DNA of 64,000 nt from Malacoplasma penetrans HF-2. Lineage in GTDB: Bacteria; Bacillota_I; Bacilli_A; Mycoplasmatales; Mycoplasmoidaceae. The translations under genes and the position numbers were made by a program. The DNA lies in the NCBI RefSeq assembly GCF_000011225.1, contig NC_004432.1, forward strand, positions 682,001 to 746,000, written 5' to 3'. Numbering within the stretch: the stretch's first letter is position 1; each line of letters opens with the position of its first letter. The notes under the pieces were generated by a model. The model was not told the DNA's origin, did no database searches, and worked only from the letters and a program-made list of their open reading frames with translations. This document shows positions 2,887 to 46,640 of this stretch, piece by piece.

Positions 2887-3602
2887 ATGTTACTTAAAAA
2901 ATTATTATTAATAGGGGGGGTGTTGTAGTAGGTTCTACTGCTTTAGCTAGTGCGATAGCTATCCCTATCTCTCAATCTCAATTAAATTCTTCAAGTGCTG
3001 AAGTTCCAACTGATCCAAATGGTAATAATCAACCAAATGATCAAAATGAAAATAACAGTCAAAATGGAGATAATAACAACAATCCACAAGTTCCAGATAC
3101 AGATAATAATGGAAATAATGGAGAAAATATAAATCCAAATCCTGATATTGATAACAGTAATTTGATAAAGGATGTTAAATTACCTTCTGGTGATGTTATG
3201 TTTAAAAATCTTGAAAAAACAAACAATAACCATTCTGATTACTTTTCATATCAAGTTTATAACAAAATAATAGCCACAGATAGTGAATTAAATAATAAAT
3301 TAAAAGATTGGTTTGAACAAAATAAAAGGAATCCTAATTTTAATTATTTGTATTTCTTAGATTCAAAAAATATCACATGATTGCATGATAGCATTTTAGG
3401 ATATAACTATGAACCTATTGAATATGTAGATAACTCAGCAAAACTCTTTACTGAGAACTTGAGTGGCAGCAGCAACAGTTCAAGTAAATATAACAAAGTT
3501 TATTCTTTTCAAGTAACTCTAACACCAGCTTCTGGGCATGGTTGAACAGATGGTGATAGAGAAGGCAAAGTTATTACAATTTTTGCACCTTTTAGTTCTT
3601 AA
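2887..3602 (+). pseudogene. P35-like surface protein, out of frame at a G7 tract (probably phase-variable, OFF)
   Basis: The start codon, with ribosome site AGAGGA, opens a signal-peptide-like frame. It reaches TAG at 2926 because the G run at 2914-2920 has seven residues. One extra G would give ~238 residues: MLLKKLLLIGGG..., then an Ala-rich hydrophobic segment, an Asn/Gly/Gln/Pro-rich stretch, and a globular domain ending SGHGWTDG. That matches the neighbour at 3866 along its whole length (PISQSQ, LIKDVK, YQVYNK). The rest of the frame is clean to 3602. This is the pattern of slipped-strand ON/OFF switching rather than decay, although a sequencing error or simple inactivation is possible. 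No lipobox cysteine is visible. P35 membership is inferred. Confidence 0.75.
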
Positions 3603-8653: not shown

Positions 8654-9598
8654 TTATTTATTTTGTAATTCTTCTTGTGAATCTAAAACTTGTTCTGATT
8701 CACTATTTTCTACAATGATATTATCAACATCATTTTGGTTAATATCTACATTTACATTTTTTACTGAGTTAAAGAAATTTAAAACAGTTTCAATATATTT
8801 ATCATTTTCTTCAACAAAAGGTAAATGAGCAGATTCTTCAAAAGTTGCTATTTCATAATTTTGTAATGAACTAAATCTTTTTAATGTTTTATGATAAGTT
8901 ACAACCCCATCATATTTTCCAATAATAACCATAGATTCAACTCTATTGTTTGATTCTGCTTTTTTTAATTCATTATGTAATTTAATAGATTTCATATTTT
9001 TTCTTAAAAATTTAAAATCTTTTAAATGATCTAAGAAGTAGTTAGTTTCTTCAACTAATTCTTCAGTGCTATCTCCACTATAATGTTCTTCAGGTTTATA
9101 TAACAAAATAGATTTGGATTTTCAGTTCTTTTCATAAGTATCAGGTAACAGTTTATTAGTAGCAATTAAAGATTTTAAACTTGTTCACATTGATGAATTC
9201 ATTGGAGTTACAGCAATTAATTTAGCAAGTCTATCACCAACTAAATTTGATAATAAGATAGCTAATCCTCCACCCATTGAGTGACCAATTAAATATAAAT
9301 TTTCAAATCCCTTTTGATTAATTCAAGTAGAGATATATTGAGCATAATATAATGGGTTTAAATGGATTTTATGTTTTAGTTTTGCAAATCCATGACCAGG
9401 TAATTCAAGTGCATAGTAATTGAAATCATCTGTTAATTTATCAATTACTTCATCATGATATTCAGATGTTGTAGCAAACCCATGGATAAATAAAATATTT
9501 TTTGTAGATTTATTTTTAGAAGATTTGAATCTATATGTGTATCCATTTTCATTTATTAATTTAAAGTATTTGTTTTCATTAGACAAGTTGTTAGTCAT
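8654..9598 (-). CDS. Alpha/beta hydrolase (lipase/esterase-like)
   Basis: This is a 314-residue serine hydrolase, probably acting on lysophospholipid or acylglycerol esters; the substrate is inferred. It shows the oxyanion-hole motif IHGFATT (residues ~33-39), a Gly-His-Gly segment (LPGHGFAKL) and the nucleophile elbow GHSMGGG. A C-terminal GKYDGVVTY-like Asp region and a late His (ESAHLPF) complete a plausible triad. An unusual acidic tail (~25 residues, ending DSQEELQNK) follows the fold. Similar hydrolases are common as multiple paralogues in mycoplasmas. It is the first gene of a unit with ptsI. A terminator at 9730 separates it from secA. Confidence 0.85.
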
Positions 9599-9729
9599 TT
9601 TACTATCCTAGCTTATAAAAATTTATTTGTTTATTTTTACATAAAAGTGCAAAAATAAACAACAACACTATTATTATAGACTATATTTTATTTTGTTAAG
9701 CACACAATTTCTTTAATAGTTTAAGTAAA

Positions 9730-9763
9730 AAAGAAACAATTTCAAAAGAGAAATTGTTTCTTT
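9730..9763. terminator. Intrinsic terminator after secA
   Basis: A 14-bp perfect stem (AAAGAAACAATTTC / GAAATTGTTTCTTT) with a 6-nt loop lies 19 bp beyond the secA stop in the minus direction and has a T/A tail. Confidence 0.9.
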
Positions 9764-9781
9764 AATTAAATTAATAAAACT

Positions 9782-12700
9782 TTATTTTTTGTTGTTTTCT
9801 TTTAAATAATCTAGAATGTCTTTTTGAAGGTTGTGAATTTCTGCAGGTTGATTAATTTCTTGAATAATCTCTGTTTCATCTTCACTTTCTTTATCTACAG
9901 TTTTGATTATTTTAATGTTATTTAAAAAAGAATCTTGGCTATTGATGTTTGGCTCTTCTTCATTTGTGTTTTCTAGTTCTTCATTATTTTCAATAATCTC
10001 AACATCTTTTAAATTTTTATTTTTTTCTTGCAATAAAGCTGTAACAACTTCTGGATTTTCAGATGTTAACTCTTTTACATCCCCTAAATATTTTTCCATG
10101 AATTTCTCATGTTCTTTTTTTGTAATAAGTCATTTATCTTCTTCAGATAACTCTTCTGGATTAGGATTAATTACTTCTTCTAAAACTTCTTCAGATAATT
10201 CAGCAGCTTCAACTTCATCATTGAATTGGCCATCATCAATTACTTCATCTAGTGCTTCTTCAAATTCTAATTGTTGATTTTCTTCATCAACAAGATTATC
10301 TTCAAAAGATTGTTCTTCGTGAGGGTTATCCATAGCTTTAAAGTTGTCTAAGCTTTCACCCTCTGGAATATCTTCTAGATAATAAACTGGTGTTTCAAAC
10401 TCAACTTGTCTTTCTAGTTCTTTTCTTTCAAGAACCTCAGGGTCTTCTTTATTTAAAAGTTGATTAATTTTTTCCAATCTATCTTTTTCATCATCTAACT
10501 GTAATAAAGTATTAAGTTCTTGTTCACTAGCCTGGTTTTCTTCTCTAAATAAATTAGTAGATTTTATTTTTTCATTATCTAATTCATTTTTATTTTTAAA
10601 ATTAAATGGTGTCTTCTTTAAAAGATTTCCACCAAACAATGTTCCTGGTTCTTTTTTATCAACTTTTGGAAGTTTATAGAAAGCTTTGATATCATCATCA
10701 CTTTCATCCTCATTTAACTTTTTATAATCTGAATAATCAATTCCATTGTTTTTATTTACAAAAACTGAATTTCTATATTCAATAAAATCTGGGTCATTTG
10801 ATAAATCAAAAGAAATAGATTTTTGAATTTCTTCTTTAATAGATTCACGCTCAGATTCATCTAACAATTCAATTTCATTATCAATGTCACTTGTAGTGAT
10901 ATCCAATTGATTTTGTTCAGGAATATTTGCTGTAACTTCTTGTTCATTAGAAGATGGTTCTAATTGTTGAGTGATTTCTTTATCTTGATCATAGTCAATA
11001 TCCATGCTGTCTAAGATGTTATCTAAGTAATTTCCAATAGTTAATGGTTTTTCATCATCTTTAAATGCAGGCATATCAAGAATTTTTTGAATTTCTTCTT
11101 CACTTAAAGGTTGTTGAATTTCAGGAGCTTTATCAATATTAGAAACATTTTCAATTTCTTCAATATCATCTTCTAAATTAGCAGACTCAAATACAAATTG
11201 GTCATCAGCTTTAGCAGTATGAGGAGTTTCTTGTGGATCTAATTCTTCAGTATTAAATGTATTTTGAATTTGTGAGAAAGAGTTTTCAAAAATATCTGAT
11301 TCATTTTCTAAAATGTTAACTTCACTTGAACCATTGTTTAATTCATATTTATCTGTACCACTAGTATCATATTTTGGAATTTCAAATCCATATGGAGTAG
11401 TTTCTGTTTCAACAACTTCAGGTTCTGTTTGTTGTGGAATATATTCTTCAACTTCAACATATTCTTCTGGTGTTTCTTCAATTAAAGTGTTCTCTAATTC
11501 ACTTTCAATAAAGTTGTCAAATTCACTTGTTGCAGAACCAGAAAAACTTAAAGCGCTATTAAAGTTCTGTTCAATCTCCCTTTGGTTTCCATAATTTTTT
11601 TTTTTGAATTCTTCAGAGTTTACAAATTCATCCAATGCATTTGTAATTTCAATCATTTCATTAGGCAATGAAAGATTGCAAATACTTGTAATAGTATCTG
11701 TTACTACATTGATTTTCATTCTTTCAAACAAATTATTTCCATCTTCAATATAAATATTTAATGGACTTCTTTGTTCAAGAGATCTTAAGTTAACCCCTTC
11801 TCTTAGCTTAGTCATTTTATCAATGTGAGTTGTTCACTTTTGATCTAAGTTAACTAATAAGATTTCATCTATTACATTTAAACCATTGATTTTTTCAAGA
11901 ATTTTACACTTAACATCAACAACTTTTTTAATAATTGAAATTGCTTTATCAATAGCTAATAAGATTGGCATATTAGCAAAAGTTGCTGGAGTAAAATAAG
12001 AGAATTTTAAGATTTTCTCATTTAAGAAAGCAACAATCTTATTTGCATCAACAAGAGATGTATTGTCATTGTTTTTAAAGTTTAAAATTTCTGTTTCAAC
12101 ATAATCATCAATCATGTTGTTAATGATGTTTAAATTGTTAGTTTTTAATAAAATTTGATCACGTTGCTTATAAATCAATTCTCTTTGTAAAGATAAAACA
12201 TGGTCATAATCCATTAGGTTTTTTCTAATGTCAAAGTTAAGACCTTCAACCTTTTTTTGAGTTCTATCTAACATCTTAGAAAAGAATCTTGAGTCATAAA
12301 ATTCTTCTTCTAATTTTTGAGAAGCTTTTTCAAATCTATCTGTTGCAAATCTTTTAAATAAAGCATCTTCTAAAGAAGTAAAAAATCTAGATTCACCAGG
12401 ATCACCCTGTCTTCCAGTTCTACCTCTTAATTGGTTATCAATTCTACGAGATTCATGACGTTCAGTACCAATTACATACAGACCACCAAGTTCTCTAATT
12501 TCATCACTTACTTTAATGTCAGTACCACGACCTGCCATGTTAGTTGAAATTGTAATTGCACCTTTTTCACCAGCATGTTTTACAATCTCAGCTTCTTTAG
12601 TGTTATCTCTGGCATTTAATACTTCATGAGGGATTTTAAGTTCTGTTAATCTTTCATGAATAATTTCTGAGTCAGTTACAGAAGCTGTGCCAACAAGAAT

Positions 12701-13999
12701 TGGTTGACCAGTTTCATGACGATTAACTATTTCTTGAATTACATGATTCCACTTAACTCTTTTTGTCCCAAAAATATAGTCTTGCTTATCAATTCTAGCT
12801 ACTGGTTTGTTAGTAGGGATTCTAACAACTACCATGTTATAAATTTTCAAGAATTCTTCAGCTTCAGTCATTGCAGTTCCACTTACACCTGACAATTTTT
12901 CATAAAGTCTAAAAAATGATTGATAAGTAATTGTTGCCATTACAACATTTTCAGGTTCAATTGTTACTCTTTCTTTTGCTTGAATTGCTTGTTGTAATCC
13001 AGCATTATAACTTCTACCTTCTAAAACTCTTCCTGTAAATTGGTCTACTAAATAAATTTTGTCATCTTTCACTAGGTATTCTTTACCATTAGCAAAAATA
13101 TAGTGAGCTACTAAAGAGTTAGTAATTTTATGAACTATTTCTGCACTTTCAACAGAATATAAATTTGTTAAATTAAAAAACTTTTCAGCTTTAGAAACAC
13201 CTTGATCAGTTAAAGCAATTGTATTTGATTCATTATCAATTTTGTAATCATCTTCAGCTAAAGATCCTACAAATTTATCAATATCTAAATATAATGAAAA
13301 ATCTTCTTTTGGTTGTCCTGAAATAATTAAAGGAGTTCTAGCTTCATCAATTAAAACAGAGTCAGCTTCATCGACAATTACAAAAAATAATTCTCTAATA
13401 ACTTTTTCATTGATATCTCTAACCATATTGTCTTTAAGATAATCAAAACCAAGTTCTGAGTTAGTAGTATAAGTTATGTCTCTTGCAAACATTTCTTTTT
13501 TTGTTGCTTTACTTAATTTTGAAGTGTTATAACCTACAGTTATTCCTAATTTTTCAAAAGCTTTTTGAGCAAATAAAGCATCTCTTTCAACTAGATATTC
13601 ATTAACAGTAACAATATGAACACCACGTTTTGTAAGGGCATTTACAAAAGAAACTAAAAGTAAGGTTAAACTCTTACCTTCCCCAGTATACATTTCAGCA
13701 AAGTCACCAGTATGAACAACATATGCACCCATCATTTGAACTTCATAAGCTAGCATACCATGTTCACGATAAATGATTTCTCTTGCAATTGATAAAGCAT
13801 CAACAATGATATCTTCTAGTGTGAATTTATCTTTAGCTAAACCATCTACTAAATAATCAGTTCTAATCCTTAAGTCTTCAATTGATAAAGCACTATATTC
13901 TTCACGGTTATTTTCAACTTGTTGAGCAATTAGTTTTGCCTTAACAAGGATTTTAGATTTCTTTTTAATTTTTTTGAATTTTTTAATTTTCATATGCAT
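9782..13999 (-). CDS. secA: Preprotein translocase SecA with ~600-residue acidic C-terminal extension
   Basis: SecA is the ATPase motor that drives proteins through SecYEG. Read with UGA as Trp, the gene is one frame of 1405 residues. A code-11 reading would split it wrongly after LVNLDQK (UGA at 11834-11836). Seen in order: Walker A variant MYTGEGKS (~104-111; most SecAs have GEGKT), IVDEADSVLIDEARTPLI (~208), MAGRGTDI, RGRTGRQGDPGES, and the C-terminal WTTHIDKMTKLREGVNLRS helical region (722-740). SecA homology ends near residue 800, the normal size in relatives. The remaining ~600 residues are Glu/Asp/Asn/Gln-rich, with no zinc-binding tail. No stop separates the two parts. Function of the tail is unknown. 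Confidence 0.93.
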
Positions 14000-14205: not shown

Positions 14206-14254
14206 TGTTATCGGTAAAGTTAAATCCCCACCTTTCAGCAAAGTTAATTCCCCA

Positions 14255-14269
14255 CCCCCCCCCCCCCCC
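14255..14269. repeat. C15 homopolymer in the IS21 leader
   Basis: Fifteen consecutive C residues lie about 57 bp upstream of the istA start. In such AT-rich DNA this is extreme and likely to slip. It is in the leader, not in codons, so length change would alter spacing or RNA structure rather than frame. The IS21 relic at 33631 has no such run at the matching place. Confidence 0.9.
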
Positions 14270-14325
14270 GTGAGGACTTAACTAAAGAAATGGGGATTTT
14301 TATAATTTCTCTAATAGGGGGAATT

Positions 14326-15702
14326 ATGAAAAAAATTAACAAAATAAGAATGATAGATAAAATTAAAGAATTGTTAAAAAATCAACAAGTAGTAAACATT
14401 AAGGCTTTATCTAGAGATTTACAAATAGACAGAAAAACTGTTAGGAAGTATTTAAGAATTTTAAGTAATAACCCAGAATTAAAATCTTGTGACTTCAAAA
14501 GAAAATATAAAAAACCATCTAAGAATTTTTTATCACAAATTGAACATATTATAGAATAGAGAATTGAATCTTATAAAGAAAAAACCAATGGAACTAAACC
14601 ATCAATATTTTCAATTTATGAACATCTCTTGGATTACTTACCTTCAAAGCTTGAAATATCTAAAACTGAATTTAAAAATAAAATTTCCTATTCTACTTTT
14701 AAATCATTTTTAAAAGAAAATTATGATTATTCTTCAAGAGCTATTACTCCTCCAAAAAAAATAATAAAGGAAACCTATCCTGGAAAAATTTTGGAAATAG
14801 ACTGGGCTGAAAATATTGTCATTCATACAAAGGAAGATGGAAAGTTAAAAATTAATATTTTGGTTACAAAGTTCTCGTATTCTAGATATATGAAGTTATT
14901 TGTTTCTTATGAAAAGAGTTCTCAAACTGTATTGAAGTTTTTAGTCTCTGCATTGGCAGAATTCCAAGGCAGCCCTCTTTATTTAGTTTGCGACAACATG
15001 AAATCTATTATTTCTAAAAACCAAAACTATTTAAACAAAAAGCCAATTTTAGAAAAACATTGAAATGATTTTGAAAGAGATTTTGGTATAGAGATTATTC
15101 CATGTGATCCAGCTTCACCAGAACAAAAAGCTAAGGTTGAAAGTGCTGTAAGAATTGCAAAAAAAATAAAAGCTTGAACTGGAGTAATTGAAAACAAAAA
15201 TCACTTAATAGAAATTGTTAAAAACATAGAATCTAAATACAACAACAGTGAGAATGGTGTGGGGTTTAAACCAATTCAATCTTTTTTAAAACAAGAATTG
15301 CATACACTTCAACCTTTACCTAACAAAAAAATTATTGAAGGTTATTTAAATTCAAAAGAAACAAGAATGGTAAAAAATGACTATAAAATAGCATTTTTAA
15401 GCAATTTTTACTACTTACCACCTTTATATCTAAATGAATATGTGCAAATATATCAAGATGATTCTAATGTCTACATAGAACATAATGGAACAATAATTGC
15501 AACATATGAAAACAGTTTAAAAGTAGCTAAGCATTCTTTTACTACAACAGAAATTCATTCAGAAATTTTAAAGTATGAATTTTTAAAAAGAGGTGACAAT
15601 ATTTCAGAAGAAGTCATTAGGAAAATGGCAAAAGAAACTGTTGAGTCATTAGACTTGCAGTATAAACTAAAAGTTTTTAATCAGAAAAATCAGGAGACCT
15701 AA
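14326..15702 (+). pseudogene. istA: IS21 transposase IstA, interrupted by TAG
   Basis: IstA is the DDE transposase of IS21. I start it at the ATG after GGGGGAA (14317-14323). The N-terminal helix-turn-helix is clear (IKALSRDLQIDRKTVRKYL). A genuine stop, TAG at 14557-14559, ends the frame after 77 residues. The same frame continues through UGA Trp codons with the catalytic core (LEIDWAE, LVCDNMKS, PEQKAKVESAVR) and the C-terminal domain to TAA at 15700. So the gene has a single nonsense mutation, or possibly a suppressed or restarted product. The full length would be about 458 residues. Confidence 0.85.
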
Positions 15703-15703
15703 A

Positions 15704-16465
15704 ATGAAAGAAATTGAAAATTTGTTAAATGAAGTTAAATGAACAACAAATGAAAAGGTATTTAATCTTTTAATGGATCAAAGATATTCTAGTCCTTTAA
15801 TTGTTGAATTTTTAAAATCAATTTTAAGAGAGGAGGTAAACTTCAAAACTAAAAGAAGAAAATATTTAAAAGTTAAAACAGGAGGATTTGGAATAATAAA
15901 AACTATAGAAGAATTTGATTTCACTTTTCAACCACAAATAAATCAAAATCAAATTAATTATTTTTTAAATTTTGATTTTATAAAAAATAAACAAAATATA
16001 ATTTTTCAAGATACTTCAGGAGTTGGAAAAACTCATCTTGCCACAGCTATTGGGATTGCTGCTGCAGAGTCAAAATATAGTGTTTATTTTATTGACTGCA
16101 ATAGGTTGTTAAATAATTTACAAGAAGCAAAATTTAAAAACCAACTTGCTCAAAGAATTAAACACTATTCTAAGTACAAGTTACTGATAATTGATGAATT
16201 GGGATTTCTTCCCATGGATCAAGAAAAAGCAAATATATTTTTTCAATTGGTTAATAGTAGATATTTAAAAAGCTCAACAATTATTACAACAAATAAACTA
16301 TTTTCAGAATGGGGAAAACTATTCCAAGATGAAGTTATAGCAAGTGCAATATTGGATATATTATTACATAAATCCCATGTTGTTAGCATTGCTGGAAAAT
16401 CTTATAGAAACTATGAGTCTTTAAAATTAAAAGAAGAAATTGAATGAAAGGATAATGTTAAATAA
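15704..16465 (+). CDS. istB: IS21 helper ATPase IstB
   Basis: IstB is the AAA+ ATPase that assists IstA in target choice. The 253-residue frame begins one base after the istA stop, with AGGAGA as ribosome site, and ends at TAA (16463-16465) after a UGA Trp codon. The Walker A region reads QDTSGVGKTHLA, where the usual first Gly is Asp. Walker B is LLIIDELGFLPM, followed by sensor-region TIITTNKLFSEWGK. The length is normal for the family. Because its partner is interrupted, it probably has no mobilising role here unless another IstA is supplied. Confidence 0.9.
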
Positions 16466-16582
16466 AACCCTTTTAAATAAAAAAAGTTAAGTCCCACATT
16501 TATACTAAGGGGTGGGGAATTAACTTTACCGAAAGGGTGGGGAATTAACTTTACCAAAAACACAATTATTTATAAATTTAAA

Positions 16583-16727
16583 TAAAAAAAGAGATGTTAA
16601 CCATCTCTTATCATAGACTGGGGTTTGGTTAATTTACCATTCCACACTCAATGCCCCCCATTTCATGCTTCAATAACTGTAAATAAACTTATCCACTATA
16701 TTAATAGTGTATATACCTATGTATACA
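16583..16727 (-). ncRNA. Candidate structured small RNA, tandem copy 1
   Basis: One of three diverged copies (others at 16913-17052 and 17357-17500), all on the minus strand. Order 5'-3': GTATACATAGG; stem CACTAT-TAAT-ATAGTG; a 9-nt-arm hairpin with G5 loop (CATGAAATG / CATTGAGTG); the invariant GTGTGGAATG; an ACCCC able to pair with the G loop; then a terminator (GAGATGG...CATCTC, T7). No reading frame is kept among copies. The paired bases vary together between copies, which supports RNA structure. Function is unknown. The IS21 insertion ends 20 bp downstream. Confidence 0.6.
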
Positions 16728-16740
16728 TTTAAATATTAGC

Positions 16741-16912
16741 ATAAAAATGTTATGTAGTAATTTTTTAAACTTTAAATCTCTATAGTCTTTGCAAAACTTT
16801 GTTTATTTTTTAATTTTATTCTTGTTAGATTTTTATAAAGAAGTAGAAGCAATATTAGTTCTTTAGTTTTCAACCATTTTAATAACTTCTTTTTTTAGTT
16901 GTTTTCTATAAA
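16741..16912. other. Spacer between RNA copies 1 and 2
   Basis: AT-rich sequence without a gene or an obvious repeat. Minus-strand promoter sequences for copy 1 should lie just right of 16727, but no clear -35/-10 pair stands out. Confidence 0.4.
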
Positions 16913-17052
16913 TAAAAAAAGAGATGCACACATCTCTTTTTATGCGGAGTTCTATTTAATTTATCATTCCACACAAAATGCTCCCCATCCTGTGTTTCAA
17001 TACCTACAAATTAAATTACATACATATAAATGTATATATACCCTACGTATAC
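16913..17052 (-). ncRNA. Candidate structured small RNA, tandem copy 2 (most diverged)
   Basis: Same order of elements as copies 1 and 3, but with many base changes that keep pairing. The first stem is ATACAT-TTAT-ATGTAT instead of CACTAT/ATAGTG. The second hairpin is CACAGGATG / CATTTTGTG, with all nine pairs including two G-U. The loop is GGGAG instead of GGGGG, and the downstream partner is CTCC instead of CCCC. It ends in a GAGATG / CATCTC terminator with T7. The compensatory changes are the main evidence that the element is an RNA. Confidence 0.6.
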
Positions 17053-17356
17053 ATATATATGTTAACACAGAGAATGAAGTGTCTTATATTTTTGCACATT
17101 TAATTTATGATATAGCAAGGATATCTGATTAAAAATCATATTTAGAAGTTTTTGTATATACAAAGATATAACTAAATCCATAAATAAAAAATTTTTTAAA
17201 TTAACTAAAAATAGGTGTACACTTTCAATGAACTTATTTTTATTTAAAAAGCAATTTCTTAAAAATTACATTTAGTTAACTGGCTAATTAATTTATTTAA
17301 TTCTATTCTTAAACATTATTATGAATTTATTAGTAAATATTTATTATTGTAGACAT
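17053..17356. other. Spacer between RNA copies 2 and 3
   Basis: About 300 bp of low-complexity AT-rich DNA. No gene, repeat or terminator is recognised in it. Confidence 0.4.
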
Positions 17357-17500
17357 AAAAAAAGAGATGGTAACATCTCTTATCATATATTGGGGTTTTA
17401 GCCATTTTGCCATTCCACACCCAATGCCCCCCATTTTGTGCTTCAATAACTGCAAAATAAACTCATCCACTATATTAATAGTGCATATACCTATGTATAC
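17357..17500 (-). ncRNA. Candidate structured small RNA, tandem copy 3
   Basis: Very similar to copy 1: stem CACTAT/ATAGTG in a variant context (TATGCACTATT), a hairpin CACAAAATG / CATTGGGTG with G5 loop, the constant GTGTGGAATGG, an ACCCC partner and a terminator GAGATG / CATCTC with T7. The TGGC...GCTA short stem after GGAA is matched by TGGT...ACCA in copy 1. It is the first copy in the direction of transcription and lies downstream of the membrane-protein gene, separated from it by the terminator at 17611. Confidence 0.6.
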
Positions 17501-17610
17501 ATTTAAATAGTAACGTATAGAAACAAGAAGTAAACACTTATTAACTTTTGATTTCAAATTTATTTTTATAATTATTATTTTTTAAAAGACAGATATTTAT
17601 ATCAAAAGAA

Positions 17611-24605: not shown

Positions 24606-27149
24606 CTATTTTAAACCTAATCCAATTTGTACTAATTCACTTGGGCTTCTTGGTAAAACTCCATAGTTGTAAACTGGTTGATTTGCTTGATTTGTAAATG
24701 GTGCATAGACACCATCATAAATTTGTCTGTGTAGTTCTTTTGTTACATCTTCACCACCAGTGCTATCTTTTTCATTTCAGTGAAATACACCATAAGGAAT
24801 TGCACTAAACTCAAAGTCACCAGCTGGGTATACAAGTGAAGATAAATTGAATCAATTGATCATTCCAGGAATAGCAGCTCTAATAATTCTTGCTTGATCA
24901 CTTTCATAATCTGATAAGAATCTTGCTGCAGTTGAATTAACTGAGCTTTTTAATCTTGTTGTTGGTCTATGAGTAGATGAATCAATTTCATAAGGGTTCC
25001 CACCTCATACTGCAAAATTACTTTGTTCAGTTCTTGAAACCCCAATGTATTTAATTGCATTTCTTCAAACAGGATCGTTTATAACTGTTTGAGTTTCAGT
25101 TGTTGGAATTTGTGCAGATGAATAATTACCTGCTAAAAAGTTTTCATATACTACTTGTGCTGTAACTTGAGCACCAACCAAGTTAACTCTTTGTTCGGTT
25201 ATTTTTTCTTCATCTTTATTTATTAAATCTTTTCTAGCATTAAAGTATTCATTATTTTTTCTATAAACAATTTCACTTTCAGAAATTCTTGCAACATAGT
25301 ATGCACCTGCACTTCACAAGTTATCATCATTTAAATCACTAGATCTTCCCTTAGCCATTCCAAAAATATTCCCAAAATTTGTTCTATCTAAATCCAGTGT
25401 AGTTCTTGTTGTTCCATTTTCACTAGTTGTTGTTGTTTTTATTTCACCAGAATCACCTGTTTTTATATTTTTAACTTCTTGGTTTGTGTATGGGATACCT
25501 CAGAAGTAAGAACTTGATAAATACTCCAAAATATGACCATTTGGTTTTGTTACATATAAAGTGAATTTATTGTCTGTATTAGTATATTCTTCAGTTGGGT
25601 AATCTGAATCTGTTATTTTTTTATTATTTCCATTATTACCATTGTTATTGCTACCATTGCCATTATTTACAGTTCTTTGTAAATCTAATGCTAAAGTATT
25701 TATAAAATAACTATTTTGTTGATAACCTAATTCAGATGCTAATCAATAGGCCTCTAAATTTCTTTCAAAATCTTTCCCACTTAATGCTTGTTTTTGATTT
25801 CCGTTTTTATCTACTCATTTAATATTAGTGTCAATATTAAATTCTAATTGATAAGTTTTACCTAAATTTTCAGAAAGACTCGTTAAATCTAAGTCTTGAC
25901 CTCTATTTAAAGTTTGAAGTTCTTTTCCAGTGTTGTCCTTCAAAACCAAACTAGTAGCACCATTTAATCTTCAATGATCCATTGGTTGTTGTCTTGAATC
26001 ACTGTTGTTCCAATCACCTGTAACTTCTGTATCTATCAAAGAAATACCTGTACTATAGTTAGAATTTGATGCGGTACCAAATGCTGGACTAAATCATTGG
26101 TTGTTAGTTTGCCAAGCTGTAGCATTACCATAACCTTTAATTACACCTCTTTCTCTATTACCAGGAAGTTGATAATATGTTCCAGCAGCTTTTACTGCAC
26201 TATCTCTTAAATTTGTAAGTCCATAAGGACTACTACGTTGAATGAATTGAGGATCTAATAAAGTTGCACTTCTAGACTTCAAACTTGCAGTTGGAGTAGG
26301 CATAAAAAGATATAAATCATCTAAAATATATTGTAAAAAGAAAGAAATATCTTCTGTTAAATGCTGACCAAAGAATGAATCTGTAAAAATACCTTGAAAT
26401 GCATTATTCCCTGATGATTGACCAAGCGTTCCTTCAAAGGCTTGTCTGTAATCATCTGGTAAATTAGTTCCAGTAGAAAAACTGCTTTTATACAATCCAG
26501 CAGATATTAGTTTACTTAATAAGTCCTTAGCAGCAGCAACATATTTTTGACCATACTGAGCTAAATAAGAAGATTCATTTCTATAAATATCTCTAATTCT
26601 CTTATGAACAGCATCTCAAACATTTAAACTATTTCTATTATTATTTCCTCATTCATCTAATCCTATTCAAGAAGAAATTCAAGTTCCAACCCCATCATAG
26701 TCTGGTCCTCATAAGAAGAATCCCATTTCAGAATTTCCAGTACTAAATCATGAACTGGCAGATGGATTAGCTGTACCAGCAGGCAATCAGTTTCAACTCA
26801 TTAAACCACCTGATAATGTCTGACTAATCTCTGTACCTATTCTGTTATACATAGTTGTATTCAATGGCCCTAAAGATGAGTAAGGCGTAATGAAATCAAT
26901 TTGCATAGGATTAGATTCTGTTGCACCATAACGTCTTAAAGCATCTCTAAATGAATCAATACTTACTTCAATATCTCTGATTCCATCTGCTGCTTTAATA
27001 TTAAAAGGATTAATATAACTATATGATGTTGGAGTGGTTGAACTACCATAGCCAGCAACTTCTCCACCTTGGTTCACAACACCAATTGTAGTTCCAACAG
27101 TTATACCCAAACAAGAACTACTTGCTAATAATTTCCAAATTAATTTCAT
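24606..27149 (-). CDS. oppA: Oligopeptide-binding protein OppA, membrane-anchored
   Basis: This 847-residue surface protein should deliver peptides to OppBC. The N-terminus has a signal segment (MKLIWKLLASSSCLGITVG...) with a Cys at position 14 that could be lipid-modified, though the lipobox is imperfect. The long extracytoplasmic domain contains an Asn/Gly low-complexity insert near the middle (about 25620-25670). A conserved C-terminal region reads RFLSDYESDQARIIRAAIPG and then EFSAIPYGVFHWNEK. Mycoplasma OppA proteins are similarly large and divergent. The assignment rests on operon position plus this architecture. The frame crosses several UGA codons; I found no other stop. Confidence 0.88.
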
Positions 27150-27316
27150 ATGAAACCCCTTGTATATATAAATAGTTTATGTTACGTAATCATAGATATA
27201 TTTATTTATATTGTTTTATCTACAGTTAAAAACTTGCAAAAATAAAAAGCACATATTTATAATGTTTATACATTTTTAGTAAATGGTAGCCATTAAGATA
27301 CTTATTTAAATAGTTA

Positions 27317-31286: not shown

Positions 31287-32808
31287 TTACAAACTCCTTA
31301 TTAGAAAATATATTTTCAATATAATTTATTTCTTCATCTGAAAATTGAAACATTGTATATAGTTCTGCATCAGTATATATTTTTGAAAAATCTAACAATG
31401 GAATAAAATCATAAGTTTCTTTTGTTGTATTTTGTGAAATTCTTTTCATGCCAAATAAAAAATGGAAAAATTTGGTTTTCATATATTCAATACAAAAATC
31501 CACTTCTTTTTCAGTATCAAATGGGCCTATTGCTAAATATGTTTCAGTGCAAACACTGTTAATTATCCCTTTTATAGGTTTTAAAAACAGTCCTCTTTTT
31601 TTCATATTTGCATCACCAACTGCTTTGGGAATGAATATCTTTCATCTGTCTCTTAATACAATGTTTTTTTCTATTAAAACATCTTGATGCAAAAATTTCT
31701 CATATCTCCCCTTATTGAAACCATAAATTTTAGTTAAATCTAACAAATTATTAGGATTTGTAAATTTTAAATTAGCATTAGAAGGTATGTTAAAAGGATT
31801 TCTAAAAGAAACAATAGATGAAAAAGGTTTGAAGCTAGGGTGGTTTTTAATTTTTTCAACTATAGATACAGCTTTATTAAATCTAATGAAATCTTTGTTT
31901 CCGTTTAATAAATATCTACTACTGGTATTAGTATTTCCATCTTCCACATTTACAAAATTGCATTTTCCACTATAGTGTTTTTCTCACAAAAAGTAGCAAA
32001 TCCCTCCATTTACATCTACACCGGAAAAGCAATCAGAAGAATTAACATAATCAACCATTGTGCTAATTTTATTACAAGCTAACATATAATTCCTAAATTC
32101 ATCCAATCCTTTACCTCCGATCATTCATCTAGATGGAATAATCATGGTTATGTATCTAGGTTCCATTTTTATTGCTTGCTCTACAAATTTGTTGTACAAA
32201 GGTATGGCACTAGACCCTATACCCCCCCCCCCGTCCGAAAGATGATATGGGGGATTGCCAACTATTACATCAAACTTCATATTAAACACCTCATTCAAAT
32301 TTTCAAAATGAATAAAACTATAAGCATGTGTTTCTAATTTTTCACTTCTTGAGTAATTCAATACACTAGCTCCACACATTTTGCATGTGTCTTTATTTCA
32401 CATGTGATCAGTTAACAAATATTTTATATTTCCACTTTCATCTTTAAAACTGTCACATATAGAATATTTATTATTGGCTTTTTTGGAACAGTAAAGTGTT
32501 CTTCTACTAATAAATCCTGTTAACTCTGTTATAGATAAGCCAAACACTTGGTTTAAAAGAATATGATTAATTCTTTTTTCAAGATTCGGTATCTCTTCTT
32601 CTAAGCCTTTTATTAATCTTTTTGTGATTTCTCTAAGGAATACCCCTGTTTTACAACATGGGTCCAAAAATCTTATATTTTTATTTTTTCATATTTCTCT
32701 CGGTAATAAATCCAATAGTTTGTTTGCAATCTCTGGAGAAGTAAAAATTTCATCACTACTAAGATTAGCAATACAATTCAAGACATCAGGATTATGATTA
32801 TTGTTCAT
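31279..32808 (-). CDS. N6-adenine DNA methyltransferase (Eco57I-like) with G11 tract
   Basis: A 509-residue modification enzyme. An N-terminal segment (EIFTSPEIANKLLDLLP) leads to the SAM-binding motif I variant FLDPCCKTGVFL (~47-58). Cys pairs that may bind zinc follow (YCSKKA, CKMCG). The catalytic motif IV is VGNPPYHLSD. Immediately after NPPYHLSD, eleven G residues (32222-32232 on the opposite strand) encode Gly4. The present length keeps the frame open; loss or gain of one G would truncate it soon after. A target-recognition-like C-terminal half follows. It overlaps its neighbours by 11 and 8 bases, so the three genes are one unit. Confidence 0.88.
32222..32232 (-). repeat. G11 tract inside the methyltransferase gene
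   Basis: Eleven C on the plus strand read as GGG GGG GGG GGT on the coding strand, just after the NPPY catalytic motif. In this AT-rich genome such a run in codons is exceptional and is the classic substrate of slipped-strand phase variation. Confidence 0.92.
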
Positions 32809-46429: not shown

Positions 46430-46570
46430 TTGTAATATACAAAAATAACTTGCCCTTTTGAAAAATACAAAAGACAAGTTATGTTAAGATCTACAACTTT
46501 ATAAAGATAAAATATTTGTTGTATACCTCGGTAACAAATTAAGGTTAATTCACCAGTTACTGTCTTTAGT
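46430..46570 (-). promoter_or_regulatory. L10 (rplJ) autoregulatory leader with attenuator
   Basis: The minus-strand leader carries ACAGTAACTGGTG, then TTACCGAGGTATACAAC, the constant CCGAGG-type block of the bacterial L10 leader. It ends in a terminator-like hairpin (AACTTGTCTTTTG / CAAAAGGGCAAGTT, 46447-46480) with a T5 tail before rplJ. In B. subtilis relatives L10(L12) binding to this kink-turn region controls attenuation; the same is inferred here. Confidence 0.8.
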
Positions 46571-46640
46571 ATATTACTAAATAATGATAACAAATTTTTT
46601 AATGGTTTAAAAAATAAGTTTTAAAAAAGTTAATAAAAAA

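Follow-up and report, generated by a model that had tools for sequence, protein, structure and literature searches.

The window analysed here, a stretch of 64,000 nucleotides (bases 682001-746000 of a 1,358,633-bp genome in one contig), carries on its minus strand three tandem copies of a small RNA (sRNA) with a conserved pseudoknotted fold, and a fourth copy is located 3.7 kb to the left of the window. On the strength of sequence and predicted structure, these copies very probably represent a genuine, multicopy family of structured sRNAs, which is apparently restricted to one species. The three copies of the original prediction are present where it placed them, and the covariance-model (CM) search that it had called for recovered all three and added the fourth. 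The copies are as follows:

16585-16709, minus strand: sRNA copy 1 (type A), CM match of 139 bits
16914-17035, minus strand: sRNA copy 2 (type B), CM match of 122.1 bits
17358-17483, minus strand: sRNA copy 3 (type A), CM match of 140.3 bits
G000:C1:678332-678451, minus strand: sRNA copy 4, match of 112 bits (E 3e-21) to the CM of copies 1-3

The span from the first hairpin to the U-tract is about 125 nt in copies 1-3, and the unit as a whole is about 140 nt, with spacers of 190-320 nt between units. Copies 1 and 3 are 88-89% identical, while copies 2 and 3 are about 73% identical. A 37-nt core pattern is matched three times in the window, by copies 1-3, and is not matched in shuffled sequence. 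It had been claimed that the copies share no reading frame, and a coding repeat had been named as a finding that would count against an RNA; no frame is open across all copies and no coding repeat is present in them. An IS21-type element encoding an HTH protein, an integrase core and IstB occupies window positions 14215-16556. A run of 15 C (14255-14269) is located upstream of the first of these genes, and the right end of the element is about 30 bp from the end of copy 1.

Every copy presents the same order of elements: a stem-loop (P1), a stem (P2), an internal loop, a second hairpin (P3), a 4-bp pseudoknot between the P3 loop and the tail, and a terminator stem (P4). The coordinates of these elements in the window are:

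16709-16704/16699-16694, minus strand: copy 1, P1
16689-16679/16637-16627, minus strand: copy 1, P2
16678-16669 and 16643-16638, minus strand: copy 1, internal loop
16668-16659/16653-16644, minus strand: copy 1, P3, with loop GGGGG at 16658-16654
16623-16620, minus strand: copy 1, pseudoknot strand CCCC
16609-16602/16596-16589, minus strand: copy 1, terminator P4
17035-17030/17025-17020, minus strand: copy 2, P1
17017-17006/16964-16953, minus strand: copy 2, P2
17005-16996 and 16970-16965, minus strand: copy 2, internal loop
16995-16986/16980-16971, minus strand: copy 2, P3, with loop GGGAG at 16985-16981
16949-16946, minus strand: copy 2, pseudoknot strand CTCC
16938-16931/16926-16919, minus strand: copy 2, terminator P4
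17483-17478/17473-17468, minus strand: copy 3, P1
17463-17452/17410-17399, minus strand: copy 3, P2
17451-17442 and 17416-17411, minus strand: copy 3, internal loop
17441-17432/17426-17417, minus strand: copy 3, P3, with loop GGGGG at 17431-17427
17395-17392, minus strand: copy 3, pseudoknot strand CCCC
17381-17374/17369-17362, minus strand: copy 3, terminator P4

Apart from short linkers, the whole molecule is structured. P2, which was absent from the original prediction, is a long-range stem that encloses the second hairpin and contributes four of the ten compensated pairs described below; its inner end is closed by UUUAC/GUAAA, UUUGU/AUAAA, UUUUGC/GCAAAA or UUUAU/AUAAA. The internal loop has the consensus AGNU-AUU-GAA / GG-AAU-G, and the P3 loop is GGGGG or GGGAG, with a tail of CCCC or CUCC. 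Because the tail begins only 3-4 nt 3' of P2 while the loop that it pairs with caps P3, two helices away, formation of the pseudoknot would require that the RNA bend sharply at the internal loop, and a P2 and P3 of matching length would bring loop and tail together. The observed lengths fit this bent geometry, since P1 varies between 6 and 13 bp across the four copies, whereas P2 (10-12 pairs) and P3 (constant at 10 pairs) are nearly equal. Inspection by eye of AGNUAUUGAA / GGAAUG in either orientation found no match to the kink-turn consensus of a 3-nt bulge and tandem G-A pairs. The minimum-free-energy fold of copy 2 has a z-score of -4.6, with none of 200 shuffles equally stable, and copy 4 folds into the same shape with a z-score of -6.0.

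The evidence that the fold is maintained by selection comes from the pattern of substitutions between the copies. In a hand alignment of all four, drawn up with knowledge of the structure, 149 of 159 pair cells are standard and 10 of the 41 pairs are doubly compensated (four in P1, four in P2, one in P3 and one in the pseudoknot), compared to a mean of 70 standard cells and 2.8 double compensations when pairing partners are shuffled; none of 2,000 such shuffles reaches the observed values, and structures slid along the alignment yield at most one doubly changed pair (0-1). RNAalifold assigns the alignment an energy of -30.8, compared to a mean of -4.6 +/- 2.3 over 300 column shuffles (z -11.6), none of which is as low. 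In an independent count with a MAFFT alignment, evaluated without P1, 95.7% of cells are paired as opposed to 38-52% for slid structures, six pairs are doubly changed, and neither the pairing nor the covariation score is matched in any of 500 shuffles. Compensations separate type A from type B, copy 1 from copy 3 and copy 2 from copy 4, and so represent more than one event; copy 1 also carries single-base deletions on both strands of P2. Since the letters have changed while the folded shape has been kept, the shape is under selection.

Two of the substitutions that had been reported, CACTAT/ATAGTG against ATACAT/ATGTAT in stem 1 (four of six pairs changed with pairing kept) and a GGGGG loop with CCCC against GGGAG with CTCC, are exact, and covariation in a wider alignment, on which the original prediction was to stand or fall, is strong among the four copies, with copy 4 adding one more compensated pair and lengthening stem 1 by 7 bp. 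The segment GTGTGGAATG, which had been called constant, is so in copies 1-3 and is replaced in copy 4 by GAGTGGAATG, with its partner base changed too. Invariant positions are distributed unevenly, making up 15 of 16 in the internal loop, 4 of 12 in P1, 12 of 24 in P2 and 11 of 20 in P3, which is the pattern that would be expected for a selected shape combined with a binding or bending motif. The pseudoknot is likely, on the basis of one compensatory change (G-C to A-U) and three invariant pairs, a weaker support than that available for the helices.

Copy 4 contributes changes of its own, with a stem 1 of 13 bp (ATACATTTAATTG/CAATTAAATGTAT), in which the 7-bp extension is symmetric, and a P3 of the form CTCA...TGAG, a fresh double change. 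Its terminator has been entered by a transposable element:

L039 (G000:C1:668001-682100), 9110-10330 plus flanks: IS30/IS1630-type element

The transposase of this element (L039:9235-10251) has the domains HTH_38 and rve, and AAAGAGATGCACACATCTCTTT flanks the element on both sides, which accounts for a weak fifth CM match at 677087. PMC3317919 cites Calcutt 1999, whose title has inverted repeats targeted and duplicated by IS1630 of M. fermentans, and gives duplications of 16-26 bp. Ancestrally, copy 4 probably ended in a terminator and T-run like those of the other copies, and the terminator copy on the sRNA side has since lost its U-tract. The CM search found no further convincing copies in the genome beyond the four. 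The same genomic segment and the window, whose genes were translated with TGA read as Trp, also contain lipoprotein-like open reading frames (MLLKKLLLIGGGVVVGS) with a poly-G tract in the signal-peptide codons (L039:5854-5861, 12694-12701 and 11723-11731; window 2918-2924), the tract being G8 in open frames and G9 or G7 in copies that are apparently out of frame, which suggests phase variation by slippage. A run of 11 C at window positions 32222-32232, in or beside a reading frame near a ResIII/T5orf172 protein gene, is possibly another phase-variable tract.

Each copy appears to be equipped as a separate gene. Just 5' of P1 is a block of the form TGTATACRTA(G)GGTATA, which occurs at exactly four sites in the genome, one per copy (control, 0), and which within the window is found at:

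16712-16727, minus strand: promoter-like block TGTATACATAGGTATA, upstream of copy 1
17037-17053, minus strand: promoter-like block TGTATACGTAGGGTATA, upstream of copy 2
17486-17501, minus strand: promoter-like block TGTATACATAGGTATA, upstream of copy 3

Homology between the copies extends further upstream, for about 100 nt in the case of copies 3 and 4. The conserved block is a probable promoter, and conservation suggests that the RNAs probably begin just 3' of it, at about 16717, 17042 and 17489, which would give transcripts of about 125-145 nt. The terminator that had been noted for each copy can be recognized as a stem and T-run at each of copies 1-3, and these are among six terminator-like sites in the region, compared to 0.4 in shuffled sequence. 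Copies 3, 2 and 1 follow, respectively, the terminators of a 174-aa gene, of copy 3 and of copy 2; each would be its own gene, with a putative promoter and an intrinsic terminator. No same-strand gene lies downstream of copies 1-3.

The family has no recognizable relatives within the range of the searches. The original prediction knew of no named family of this form, and Rfam 15 indeed contains none that matches above its curated cut-offs: a scan of the window at these thresholds produced no match to the sRNA, and scans with E limits relaxed to 10 and 5 (copies 1-3 and copy 4) produced only sub-threshold matches, the strongest of which is terminator-like and on the opposite strand. The window scan did identify, elsewhere, a ribosomal protein L10 leader (46433-46587, minus strand; RF00557, 50 bits). 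Relatives had been expected in mollicute genomes, but the CM searches, which covered 320 genomes of the order, 37 relatives in a sensitive scan and 392 genomes drawn from the phylum, detected the sRNA in one species only, with no convincing homologue in about 640 other genomes; because scans with stricter filters may miss divergent members, the restriction to one species holds within what a model based on three or four sequences can detect. The sRNA was not detected in the nine further species of the genus that were examined. In the three relatives closest to this genome, sequence 3' of the 174-aa gene reaches the contig ends before the syntenic site.

Several candidates from these searches were rejected. 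BLAST-level matches in relatives are to EF-G-like coding sequence (L006-L008, L010) or lie within apparent coding sequence (L005 and L009), and those weak CM matches outside this genome that were inspected owe their score to the terminator and have no core. A relaxed core pattern applied to 317 genomes of the order matches four times in the present genome and singly at scattered places elsewhere, two of which resemble 16S rRNA. Pattern scans of viral and GTDB sequences returned only matches judged to be chance: two GC-rich ones in viral contigs (the first in a phage coding region with zero model score, the second judged by eye) and 14 in genome contigs, which is about the number expected by chance and which have no CM score. 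The phage and plasmid collections contained no convincing match.

A candidate target is found next door. The copies are downstream of, and on the same strand as, an opp operon that consists of a head gene at 24606-27149 (DUF5396), oppB and oppC (both assigned by Pfam), two ABC ATPase-like genes and the 174-aa gene; operon position makes a solute-binding role likely for the head gene. Its Shine-Dalgarno (SD) region is:

27147-27160, minus strand: candidate target, SD AGGGGTTTCATATG of the opp head gene, with perfect complementarity to AAACCCC in copies 1 and 3

In copies 1 and 3, every base of the sequence 5'-AAACCCC-3' at the pseudoknot strand has its complement in the head-gene SD 5'-AGGGGUUUCAUAUG-3', and the pattern AGGGGTTTN{0,10}ATG has a single match in the genome, at this gene. 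A small duplex scan of seven segments against 75 start regions placed the head gene first for each of the two type-A tails. GGGGTTT does not occur in the readable start regions of related genes in three relatives without the sRNA. The match is post hoc and its energy modest, with shuffled tails equalling the real one in 9 of 60 cases for copy 3 and 35 of 60 for copy 1; the complement of AAACCCC in AGGGGUUU is a genome-unique site, but the pairing energy is not beyond that of shuffles. Copies 2 and 4 could pair with the SD only through a U-G wobble.

The leading model, which we hold tentatively, is that the sRNAs are antisense repressors of the opp head gene, resembling LhrC. The pseudoknot would hold a C-rich anti-SD strand (AACCCC or AACUCC) in reserve until the pseudoknot opens or a target displaces the strand, and the strand would then pair with an SD and block translation; the most likely target would be the opp head gene, just upstream on the same strand, as with LhrC in Listeria. 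Against this, the pseudoknot alone explains the C-rich strand, and the invariance of the internal loop suggests contact with a protein or ligand more than plain antisense action. It is a serious possibility, though short of probable, that the RNAs act chiefly with a protein or metabolite able to recognize the bent P2/internal-loop/P3/pseudoknot fold, with the RNAs sequestering a protein or acting as its cofactor and the number of copies setting the dose; this would account for an unpaired loop with 15 of 16 positions invariant between helices that change by compensation, and for a molecule that is structured almost throughout, but the neighbourhood suggests no protein partner. Rather unlikely is the bolder proposal of a new fold class, in which matched helices are folded back at a near-invariant loop so that a G-rich loop captures an anti-SD strand, and self-masked or switchable siblings feed back on opp.

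Other readings are less probable still. The placement of a pseudoknotted domain directly 5' of an intrinsic terminator recalls a riboswitch or attenuator in which an aptamer controls a downstream gene, but this is improbable because no same-strand gene lies between one copy and the next, or between copy 1 and the IS21-type element on the opposite strand; in addition, no anti-terminator alternative was seen by eye and no Rfam riboswitch matched. Debris of a non-functional repeat or mobile element, structured in appearance only, might be suspected from the single-species range and the adjoining IS elements, yet the unit has neither terminal repeats nor a transposase, and neutral decay would not be expected to leave compensations on several branches, both within-pair branches among them; covariation refutes this reading unless the alignment is wrong, and we regard it as very improbable. 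Equally hard to credit is negative regulation of the IS30-type transposase through pairing of the P3 loop GGGGG with GUGCCCCCAU in the transposase leader. This duplex is the best for the loop segments among 75 start regions, unequalled in 60 shuffles, and the 14-base leader site GTGCCCCCATATAA is present six times in the genome; the shuffle null, however, breaks the G-run, C runs of at least five are common in this DNA, the loop is occupied by the pseudoknot, and type-B loops match worse. Tandem copies, a pseudoknot and a terminator are also hallmarks of type III antitoxins, RNAs that neutralize a ToxN-like nuclease (PMC5086642), but such a role is exceedingly improbable for units of about 140 nt with their own terminators and spacers of 190-320 nt, and no toxin gene of the ToxN/AbiQ/CptN kind is adjacent to the copies (a ToxN family search of the genome gave zero matches, with its control also silent).

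By its sequence and fold the RNA family is new, while sibling sRNAs are of a kind already known. A bent-hairpin pseudoknot that masks an anti-SD strand would, if proven, be a new variant. Few regulators are known in mollicutes, and covariation supports the structure of few of their sRNAs; if the bolder proposal is true, self-masked siblings would regulate opp in a near-minimal bacterium thought to be poor in regulators. With four natural variants of a single fold, the family is large enough for its essential parts to be mapped by eye, and it has a single candidate target next door. That it is missing from nine further species of the genus suggests that complex pseudoknotted sRNAs can appear, or vanish beyond recognition, quickly.

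Known systems resemble the family in part. In the SAM-I riboswitch a helix is kinked at an internal loop and a hairpin loop reaches a distant strand, the kink-turn reportedly being stabilized by tertiary contacts. The P2/kink-turn/pseudoknot module of SAM-I is similar in that a kinked helix lets the hairpin loop meet a distant strand; it differs in that the present RNA has no standard kink-turn consensus by eye, no downstream gene and no Rfam match. RsaA is an RNA of about 140 nt with a pseudoknot, encoded in a single copy, and it differs from the sRNA described here, which has no Rfam match, in copy number and lineage. In Staphylococcus aureus it acts by base pairing to block the SD and coding region of mgrA (PMC10240345), a mode of action that for the present sRNA is no more than a proposal. 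The type III antitoxins ToxI, antiQ and CptI share tandem units, a pseudoknot and a terminator with the present copies, but published ToxIN repeats are short (e.g. 35 nt) and arranged head-to-tail in one transcript with the toxin gene next to them, and are processed by that toxin, in contrast to the separate long units found here (PMC5086642).

A close parallel in arrangement and proposed action is the LhrC family of L. monocytogenes (LhrC1-5, Rli22 and Rli33-1), multicopy sRNAs of 105-121 nt that repress oppA by pairing with its ribosome-binding site (PMC8079631). The difference lies in structure and descent: the present RNA has a strongly conserved pseudoknotted fold, and no homology to LhrC is apparent from the Rfam scans or from CM matches, which occur in this genome only among those of the order and the phylum-wide sample. 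In both cases there are siblings of similar size, several in tandem and one elsewhere (PMC8079631), encoded by several homologous genes (four here), each with a putative promoter and terminator. A further parallel is proposed, in that the C-rich strand here would pair with a ribosome-binding site and an opp transporter mRNA is its predicted target; since LhrC represses oppA at the ribosome-binding site, such wiring exists.
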